This document shows positions 24,600 through 27,517 of a stretch of 64,000 nt of DNA, piece by piece. The notes below the pieces were generated by a model, which made no database searches, had not been told where the DNA came from, and was given only the letters and a program-made list of their open reading frames with translations. Numbering within the stretch: the first letter of the stretch is position 1; every line of letters starts with the position of its first letter. Made by a program: the position numbers and the translations under genes. The stretch is from Halarcobacter bivalviorum (lineage in GTDB: Bacteria; Campylobacterota; Campylobacteria; Campylobacterales; Arcobacteraceae). Where the stretch lies: the NCBI RefSeq assembly GCF_003346815.1, contig NZ_CP031217.1:248001-312000 (forward strand), given 5' to 3'.

Positions 24600-25397
24600 T
24601 TGAAAGTTGGTGTTTTTGATTCAGGGCTAGGAGGCTTAACTGTAGTTCAAGCTCTTGCTAACTCTTTAAAAGGTGTTGAAGTTTTTTATATAGCTGACAC
24701 TTTGTTTGCACCTTATGGGGAAAAAACAAAAGAACAGATATTAAAACATAGTTTAGATATTACTAATTATTTAATAAGTAAACATCAAATTGATGCTTTA
24801 ATTGTTGCTTGTAATACAGCAACTTCTGCAGCAATCAAATATTTAAGAGAAGAGTTTCCTCATCTTATGGTTATTGGAACAGAACCTGGTGTTAAACCAG
24901 CGATGCAAGCAACTCAAACAAAAAATATTGGAGTTTTAGCAACCCCTGCAACTTTAAGTGGAGAGAAATATCAACAACTATTAAAAGACCTAGCTTTAGA
25001 ACATGAAGTAATAGTACATGACCAAGCTTGTAGAGGTCTTGTAGAGCAAATTGAAAATGGAAAAGTATCTGATGTTGATACTCATAATATGCTAAAAGAT
25101 TGGTTAGATCCTATGAAAGAAAAAAGTGTAGATACAATTGTTTTAGGTTGTACTCACTATCCTTTGGTTTCAGAACTCATAAAAGAGATTATGGGAGCAA
25201 ATATAAAACTTATTGAGACAGGTTCTGCTATTGCAAGAAGATTAGAATCTCTATCTTCTTCAAATGGTTTTACTTGTGATGGTGAGTTAAAAATAAATGT
25301 TTTTTATACTGGTGAAATAAAAAAAGAGATGATTAATATGATATTAGAAACTTGGGAAGATGGTGGAAAAATAGTGGTAAGGAATGAAAATGAGTAA
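24600..25397 (+). CDS. murI: Glutamate racemase
   Basis: Makes D-glutamate for peptidoglycan. 265 residues starting at TTG (MKVGVFDSGLGGLTVV) with AAAGG upstream. Both catalytic cysteines are present: LIVACNTATSAA (~70-81) and IVLGCTHYPLV (~181-191). It overlaps the beginning of dnaX by a few codons, so dnaX is probably cotranscribed. Confidence 0.96.
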   Translation: MKVGVFDSGLGGLTVVQALANSLKGVEVFYIADTLFAPYGEKTKEQILKHSLDITNYLISKHQIDALIVACNTATSAAIKYLREEFPHLMVIGTEPGVKPAMQATQTKNIGVLATPATLSGEKYQQLLKDLALEHEVIVHDQACRGLVEQIENGKVSDVDTHNMLKDWLDPMKEKSVDTIVLGCTHYPLVSELIKEIMGANIKLIETGSAIARRLESLSSSNGFTCDGELKINVFYTGEIKKEMINMILETWEDGGKIVVRNENE

Positions 25398-27517
25398 TGA
25401 GAAACAAGAGAAAAAAGTTTTAGCTTTAAAATATAGACCAAAAAGATTTGAAGATTTAGTTGGACAAACAACAATTTCTCAAACTCTTTCTTTAGCATTA
25501 GATTCTAATAGATTATCTCATGCTTACCTTTTTTCAGGACTTAGAGGAAGTGGAAAAACATCAACAGCAAGAATTATGGCAAAAGCACTTCTTTGTTCAA
25601 ATGGTCCTACTTCAAAACCTTGTGAAGTTTGTGAAAACTGTTTAAGTTCTAATGCAAATAGACATTTAGATGTGATAGAGATGGATGCTGCTTCAAATAG
25701 AGGTATTGATGATATTAAAGATTTAATTGAACATACAAAATATAAACCAAGTAGTGCTAGATTTAAAGTATTTATTATCGATGAAGTTCATATGCTTACT
25801 ACACAAGCTTTTAATGCTTTACTTAAAACTTTAGAAGAACCTCCTGGTTTTGTAAAATTTATACTTGCAACTACTGATCCACTAAAACTTCCTGCAACTA
25901 TTTTAAGTCGTACTCAACATTTTAGATTTAATAAAATAGCAAATTCAGATGTAATGCATCACTTATCTCATATTTTAAATGAAGAGAATATTGATTTTGA
26001 AACACCAGCCCTTGATATTGTTACAAGAAGTGGGCAAGGTAGTTTAAGGGATACATTAACACTTTTAGACCAAGCAATTATTTTTTCAAAAGGTAAAATT
26101 ACAGTATCTTCTGTAGTTGATATGTTAGGACTTATTGAGCCAGAATTAATGGATAAACTTTTTGAAATAATCTTAAAAAAAGCAGATATTACTCAACTTG
26201 TAAAAGAGTTAGAAAACTATGAAATTTCTCAAGTTTGTGATGAAATGACAATCTATCTAAGACAAAAAATGTTAGCAAAAGATGCTAAATTTGACTTACT
26301 TCTTTTTGATAGATTTTTTAGAATTTTAAGTGATGCAAAACATTTATTATCTTTAAACTCTGATGGAACATTTGTTTTAATTTTAACTCTTTCAAAAATG
26401 ATTGAAGCCACAAATCTAAAAACGATTGATGATATTATTAATCAAGTTGAAGAAGTAGAAGTTAAACCTGTAATTAAAGAGGCAATCTCTGTAGAGAAAG
26501 TAGTTGAACATGCTAACAATGATTTAAATCACGCTTATGATGATAAACCCGTTAAGTTAAATGAACAATACCATGAAAATATGCATAAACAAAATAGTAT
26601 CTCTTTAGATACTCTTGATGCTATCCCAACAGTTGCACCTATAGAGAGTTTTGAAGAAAAACCAAAAGAAGTAGTTTCTGAAAATACTTTAAATAAACCT
26701 ATTCAAGAACTAAAAGAACCTAAGGTAGAAACTGAAATTCAAGAAGATAATTTTGCTACACCCTTTGATGCTTTTGCAACACCTTTTGATGAAGAAGTAG
26801 TTTTAAAACAAGAAGAACAAAAAGTAGAAGAGCCTTCTTTTGAGCAAGAGATAAATCCTACACAAGTAGAAGAGTCAACGCCTTTTACTTCTATAGAAAG
26901 TTTACCTAAGAGTGAAGAACAAAGTGAGGTTTCTTCAAATGTGAAAGCGCAAAAAGTAGAAGAAACAATAGAACAAAATGAAGAGCAAACAGAATCTTTT
27001 CAAGAAGAAATTGTAAGTGAAGTTTATGACCCTAATAAAGATGTTTATGAAACTTTAATCAATAAAGTTTATGAAAGAGATGTTGAACTAGGCGAATTAT
27101 TTGAAAGAAACTTTATCTATAAATCTTTTGAAAATAATAAACTTCAAATAAGCTCTTATGCTCAAGGGGATGAAAGAAAATTCTTATTAAAGCATTATGG
27201 AGTTATTAAGATTTTCATTTATGATATTTTTGGTCAAGATACAGAAATTGAATTTACAAAGGAAGATCCCTCCACAAGAGGAGCCTAAAACAGAAGAACA
27301 GACTTTAAGTCAAAATGAGGATAACTCTTCTGAAAGTGGCTCAATGATTGAAGATATTGAGGTTGGTTCAGGATGTGTTGCTGATATGCAAAAAGTATCA
27401 AATCCAGCACCTTCACAAAGAGAATTAGAGTTAAATGAGATATTAAACTCACCAATGCTTGATAAAGCAAAAGAGTTACTTCATGTAAAAAAAATTACAG
27501 TGAAGACAAGAAATTGA
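25390..27517 (+). CDS. dnaX: DNA polymerase III gamma/tau subunit; full reading needs a +1 frameshift
   Basis: Clamp-loader ATPase and replisome organiser. I take the ATG at 25390 (AAGGA at 25379-25383) over 25384. Visible: Walker A GLRGSGKTSTAR (~45), a four-cysteine zinc module (CSNGPTSKPCEVCENC), DEVH box IIDEVHML, sensor LSRTQHF, a Glu-rich linker (~370-540) with the repeat ATPFDAFATPFDEE, and a C-terminal domain (YDPNKDVYETLINKVYERDV on). The zero frame stops at 27286-27288 after 632 residues. The +1 frame continues without a stop to 27517 with an acidic linker and a conserved-looking end (NEILNSPMLDKAKELLHVKK). A shift at CCC_T (27268-27271) would give 708 residues. Programmed shift or indel are both possible. 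Confidence 0.85.

Follow-up and report, generated by a model that had tools for sequence, protein, structure and literature searches.

Introduction

Recoding of dnaX, the gene for the long and short (tau and gamma) subunits of the clamp loader, has been described in two forms. In Escherichia coli a -1 shift at A_AAA_AAG, stimulated by a Shine-Dalgarno (SD) element and a downstream hairpin, makes the short form. In the two-open-reading-frame (two-ORF) dnaX genes identified by GeneTack the frame is broken: gamma is read in frame 0, whereas tau depends on recoding, a -1 change at poly-A that was attributed to transcriptional slippage; none was reported with a +1 change or with an SD-NCC signal (PMC3711429). 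Shifts in the +1 direction are known from other genes. In prfB, which encodes release factor 2 (RF2), an internal SD lies just upstream of CUU_UGA, where the P-site tRNA slips on a pyrimidine-rich codon before a slow stop codon and the shift serves the autoregulation of RF2. The Listeria phage PSA, whose low-GC host rarely uses CCC, shifts at CCC_UCC_GAA in cps and at CCC_UGA in tsh, both structural genes, with a downstream pseudoknot stimulating cps (PMC5009743). Eukaryotic antizyme uses UCC_UGA, likewise NCC_U with a +1 shift, but with a stop codon in the A site and under polyamine control. Here we describe the dnaX gene of Halarcobacter bivalviorum, found in a stretch of 64,000 nucleotides (contig NZ_CP031217.1, positions 248,001 to 312,000; hereafter the window). 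With a probability that we put at about 0.9, this single gene gives rise to two DnaX proteins by programmed +1 ribosomal frameshifting.

The window gene resembles that of E. coli in yielding a long and a short clamp-loader subunit by a shift near a stop codon with an SD stimulator, but the predicted shift is a +1 on NCC, with no common hairpin. The frame break, the recoding needed for tau and the frame-0 origin of the short form are shared with the two-ORF genes. The dnaX site would work like that of prfB, yet it is no RF2-type site, as the A-site codon is a sense codon and two products result. The PSA sites have the same P-site codon, and cps the same A-site codon as well. The elements of such a system (-1 or slippage recoding of dnaX, the SD-stimulated +1 shift of prfB, and +1 shifting at CCC_UCC) are already known separately. 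In the open-access literature searched, we came across neither a +1 recoding of dnaX nor a report of recoding of any kind in this family, and no relevant paper on dnaX frameshifting in Arcobacter or the Epsilonproteobacteria.

Organisation of the dnaX gene

The window genome is a single contig of 2,684,688 bases in which dnaX is single-copy. The identity of the gene is given by NCBIfam NF006280 (DNA polymerase III gamma/tau; 681 bits) and by the Pfam domains DNA_pol3_delta2 and DNAX_ATPase_lid (AAA and lid) on the frame-0 product. Frame 0 starts at ATG 25384 (634 residues) or ATG 25390 (632 residues) and ends with ACA AAG GAA GAT CCC TCC ACA AGA GGA GCC TAA; the +1 frame is open over this junction and encodes PPQEEPKTEEQ...NEILNSPMLDKAKELLHVKKITVKTRN. 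Including the tail, the gene spans 25384/25390-27517, for a long product of 710 or 708 residues. The initial annotation had located the end of frame 0, CCC TCC and AAAGGA at coordinates that we reproduced, and its two forms of 632 and 708 residues hold for ATG 25390; its count of 81 further codons is correct to within one, 82 residues being obtained from the slipped codon. As the sequence reads, the long form could be obtained in this bacterium solely by skipping a base. The features are listed in Table 1.

Table 1. Position of the predicted dnaX products and of the putative frameshift signal in the window
Feature	Position	Strand	Remarks
dnaX frame 0, short DnaX product	25390..27288, alternative ATG 25384	+	632/634 residues; NF006280 and Pfam matches
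Internal Shine-Dalgarno-like stimulator AAAGGA (putative)	27258..27263	+	four bases upstream of the P-site codon; invariant in 62 genomes
Slip site CCC_T (putative)	27268..27271	+	P-site CCC can re-pair one base further, as CCT
Frame-0 A-site codon TCC, rare, predicted slow	27271..27273	+	1.1% of window Ser codons; no tRNA-Ser GGA found
Frame-0 stop of the short product	TAA 27286..27288	+	five codons past CCC, fifteen bases after CCC TCC (27268-27273)
+1-frame tail, extra C-terminus of the long (tau-like) product	27269..27517	+	82 residues from slipped codon CCT; stop TGA 27515-27517

A conserved break and a conserved signal

Junctions were compared in 92 related genomes, and searches of the family took in 104. 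dnaX is present in each of the 16 genomes of the window's genus, and in nine of them, the window genome included, it is broken at the homologous place, always in the +1 direction. These nine genes share ATAAAGGARGAY[C/T/G]CC TCC NCAAG (the window has ACA for ATA), an extended form that a strict pattern search of the 104 family genomes recovered exactly in these nine, once each, controls being without matches. With 60 residues of the tail as query, a match was obtained in 93 of the 104 genomes, and further split genes, all +1, were flagged in genus g19 (G091, G095) and genus g8 (G058, G062), the junctions there being AAA AAG GAA GAA CCC CGA CAA GCT TAA, AAA AAG GAC TTA CCC CTC TAA and GTA AAG GAC TTA CCC CGC TAA. 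A break with AAAGGA-N4-NCC is thus present in 13 of the 92 genomes, in three genera of one family, and two of these assemblies are single-contig; the alignment of related dnaX genes proposed in the initial annotation accordingly finds the break and the element again in 12 other genomes. The frame-0 stop of the 13 split genes always comes 1-5 codons past the P-site codon.

The most informative aspect of the comparison is that the same AAAGGA-N4-NCC is also found in 49 genomes with an unbroken gene, which makes 62 genomes in eight genera. In G083, for instance, AAA AAG GAA GAA CCC TCC GTA TTA GAA would be read after a +1 slip as CCT CCG TAT TAG. The +1 stop lies 1-3 codons on in 48 of the 49 unbroken genes and six codons on in the remaining one, and it is near in each of the seven genera that have unbroken genes, the codons that lead to it differing from genus to genus. 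The mean distance of 2.1 codons compares with 8.9 (standard deviation 1.2) at other positions of the same genes, which served as the null and where the probability of three or fewer is 0.31; 0 of 20000 draws were as low, a value that, for related genomes selected by the motif, is no true probability. Since a +1 stop is near in the unbroken genes and a frame-0 stop is near in the broken ones, two products, one long and one short, are predicted from the sequences for the site, irrespective of the frame in which the tail is encoded. The retention of the element in 49 orthologues where a +1 shift stops at once supports the proposal, made in the initial annotation, of a +1 shift at CCC_T with a prfB-like SD. 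A strain-specific oddity is ruled out, the signal being family-wide.

The shift site and its stimulator are conserved in the 62 genomes beyond what the protein demands. As in prfB, an SD-like element stands at a fixed short distance from the P-site codon: AAGGA-N4 is present in 62 of 62, and the A at -10 and the four-base spacing are invariant. The 16S rRNA of the window genome ends with GGATCACCTCCTTT at its 3' end in all four copies, and the predicted anti-SD pairing is -5.8 kcal/mol at the window site and on average -6.7 kcal/mol at the 62 sites, versus -0.9 (standard deviation 2.3) elsewhere in the same genes. The P-site codon is NCC throughout (CCC 32, GCC 28, TCC 2). The frame-0 A-site codon varies (TCC, ACC, CAA, CGA, CGC, CTC, CAG, CGG, AGG) and is always a sense codon, so that the stop codon of prfB has no counterpart (0/62); the post-slip A-site codon is CCN in 49 of 62. 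Within the window, AAAGGANNNNCCCTCC occurs once and in 0 of 100 shuffles, while the looser AAAGGANNNNBCC is seen once versus 1.23 expected, which is chance level, and the argument therefore rests on conservation. In frame, the motif is absent from the 24,944 upstream dnaX codons, and CCC TCC from the other large ORFs of the window.

The codons concerned are rare. In the same dnaX genes AAG accounts for 12%, CCC for 2.5%, GCC for 3.9% and TCC for 1.2% of synonyms, and the A-site codon is at most sites TCC or ACC, each 1-3% of synonyms, with similar values in the window, where CCC makes up 3.3% of Pro codons; TCC is as unusual there as the initial annotation had supposed. Constraint on the protein cannot account for the rare synonymous codons kept at the site.

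The tRNA set and the proposed mechanism

In the window genome, 46 tRNA matches were read by ARAGORN; they include only UGG for Pro, only UGC for Ala, and only UGA and GCU for Ser. None has G at position 34 (G34) for Pro, Ala or Ser(UCN) codons, so that CCC, GCC and UCC must be read through a U34.C pair. G018 has the site GCC_ACC. Its only tRNAs for Pro, Ala and Thr are U34 tRNAs, and Ser is served by UGA and GCU; with no G34 tRNA for Pro, Ala, Ser(UCN) or Thr, both its P-site and its A-site codons are therefore without one. A tRNA-Thr(GGU) is present in the window genome and was not found in G018, a difference tracked by TCC versus ACC in the A site of the two genomes checked. Weak pairing with CCC and a +1 shift in vitro have been reported for E. 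coli tRNA-Pro(UGG) (PMC4519876). The rare codons and the missing G34 tRNAs would fit a weak P-site U34.C pair combined with anti-SD tension.

We infer that in vivo shifting would proceed as follows. With CCC (27268-27270) in the P site, AAAGGA would pair with the anti-SD of the 16S rRNA and pull on the mRNA, while tRNA-Pro(UGG) alone would hold CCC through its weak U34.C pair and the frame-0 A site would offer UCC, a rare codon without a G34 tRNA. A fraction of the ribosomes would slip from CCC to CCU, continue with CCA in the +1 frame and add the 82-residue tail; the remaining ribosomes would terminate at 27286, with the short form as their product. The shift rate would then set the number of polymerase-holding DnaX subunits per clamp loader.

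Several observations weigh against this proposal. The spacing is about one base closer than that of prfB in the anti-SD register, the GCC_A and TCC_T sites keep a first-position mismatch after a simple slip, and the +1 sites gave no common signal of RNA structure downstream (mean z -0.6, n=62; G058 alone reaches -5.7); to these is added the motif-based choice of related genomes mentioned above. As for prfB itself, the gene of the window genome (2250503-2251546 of its contig) is one open frame, from which the classical +1 shift is absent.

The tail and the two predicted products

The two frames overlap, and the downstream +1 frame is coding and under purifying selection: over the last 60 codons of the tail, pN/pS (nonsynonymous relative to synonymous change) is 0.02-0.37 in 36 species pairs of nine split species, and no stops are present. 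In one split species (G008) about 26 residues are inserted in the linker of the tail, a part that can evidently vary, with both ends retained. At the level of sequence, the second product differs by a C-terminal tau segment. An AlphaFold2 model of the last 158 residues, built with 42 sequences, places a globular alpha/beta domain at residues 1-76 (predicted local distance difference test, pLDDT, mostly >90), which ends at the shift site and is followed by disorder and then by two tail helices of moderate confidence. According to this model, the flexible tail is all that the short form lacks, its C-terminal globular domain being retained. It would in this be unlike E. coli gamma, which ends early in domain IV (residue 431), without domain V and most of domain IV (PMC11470591).

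In E. coli, residues 611-636 of tau, past the globular part of domain V, bind the alpha subunit of DNA polymerase III (Pol III), and the I618X truncation, in which this binding is abolished, was not recoverable on the chromosome (PMC11470591). The analogy suggests that the tail probably binds Pol III alpha and that the short form would be a clamp-loader subunit unable to hold a polymerase. The tail has no sequence match in Pfam or the PDB, and no direct homology to E. coli tau was found; domain V of E. coli tau is not among the fold matches listed for the globular domain, by which its presence is not excluded. That domain (27040-27267) resembles domain I of DnaA (4tps; Z 8.3, root-mean-square deviation 2.4 over 73 residues; Foldseek E 4e-3), with DciA as a weaker fold match, and a Z near 8 may reflect only a common KH-like arrangement.

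Alternative explanations

The plain alternative raised in the initial annotation is that of a one-base indel, be it an error of sequencing or assembly or a mutation that arose recently in a single strain. One C fewer at 27268-27270 would indeed restore a single frame, and a lone genome could not exclude this; with the break and its flanking element shared by 13 genomes of three genera, two of them single-contig, and the element kept in unbroken genes, the probability of an error is close to nil. It could also be supposed that the tail is a dispensable, decaying remnant and that split species make the short form only, given that the frame-0 product retains all globular domains. The low pN/pS of the tail in nine split species, its freedom from stops and the maintenance of the shift element with its rare codons make such decay very improbable, and the loss of alpha binding in E. 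coli I618X speaks in the same sense.

Transcriptional slippage is used by Thermus dnaX and was proposed for two-ORF genes with A7-A10 (PMC3711429), and some members of the family have A9-A11 runs. However, the longest run at the +1 slip is CCC or CCCC, well short of a homopolymer of about eight or more bases, and an SD element with C-ending codons would be pointless for slippage, to which we give an extremely small chance. We give as little credence to a separate translation of the tail by re-initiation, for which AAAGGA would be a fair start-site SD with the frame-0 stop 23 bases on; a start codon at SD distance is missing from the +1 frame, the conserved GSMIED motif contains the first ATG of the tail, and the element persists in unbroken orthologues. 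Recoding by another step (a -2 shift, which reaches the same frame as +1, four-base decoding, or a slip on UCC by the tRNA in the A site) is unlikely, although the GCC_A and TCC_T sites would give just two of three pairs after a P-site slip. The SD spacing and the CC within the P-site codon are invariant, whereas the A-site codon varies, and NCC stands near the SD-to-P-site distance of prfB; both argue for a P-site slip.

Evolution of the putative recoding in the family

Among the other 30 genomes of the comparison, 29 have A_AAA_AAG or a longer A-run at the same position, with a -1 stop 1-5 codons on, and one (G067) has no convincing signal at the junction. The seven sister species of the window's genus that lack the break have A_AAA_AAG with a -1 stop one codon later, and all seven have a downstream hairpin (z -2.4 to -4.2), which is the arrangement known from E. 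coli. A_AAA_AAG or poly-A, as in the -1 site of E. coli, is not a shared element of the 62 +1 sites. Close relatives thus appear, from their sequences, to use -1 or +1 to the same end. In 20 sampled loci of the order (18 of them outside the family), a strict AAG-GAN-NNN-NCC beside a near +1 stop was not found; there are a few looser matches and, in some loci, A-runs near the junction.

The +1 site is probably older than the break and would at that time have made the short form, a later indel swapping the roles. In gene trees the g8 pair are sisters and the g19 break is separate; on this basis at least three role swaps are counted, and indels would have changed at least three times which product needs the shift. 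The gene trees show no single clean origin of the broken gene within the window's genus, where broken and -1-type species do not fall into clearly distinct groups. The recurrence of the swaps suggests a shift efficiency not far from one half, a point that a review of recoding makes for dnaX generally (PMC5009743). It can be hypothesised that dnaX across much of the family is recoded by an SD-driven +1 shift of ancestral origin, at C-ending codons for which a G34 tRNA is missing and with near-even efficiency. The shift would set the ratio of polymerase-binding to non-binding subunits in the clamp loader; its efficiency of about one half would be the reason why single-base indels could swap the roles harmlessly and repeatedly, and sister species would have exchanged +1 for -1 at the same position. 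We hold this broader scenario to be slightly better than an even bet.

If true, dnaX recoding would have a third form, a +1 shift at a sense codon, besides the textbook cases of -1 frameshifting and transcriptional slippage. The family could serve as a natural experiment, as it has, at the same place and among close relatives, +1 sites in unbroken genes, +1 sites in broken genes with swapped roles, and -1 sites with a hairpin. It could be asked there whether selection keeps the ratio of the two products constant, how recoding mechanisms replace one another, and whether ordinary C-ending codons can become shift sites once G34 tRNAs are lost. Such genes may also be mis-annotated as truncated.

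Additional observations

In the window, dnaX is flanked by a murI-like gene and a DsbC-like gene, named from their translations only. Elsewhere in the family, dnaX of genera g15 (six loci) and g3 (three loci) has runs of about 9-12 A at the position of the junction, with near stops in both other frames, where transcriptional slippage instead of ribosomal shifting could operate. In a genome of another family of the order (G112), the break in dnaX lies at A10, after which comes TAG, and the tail is in a different frame; this resembles the two-ORF poly-A type (PMC3711429).
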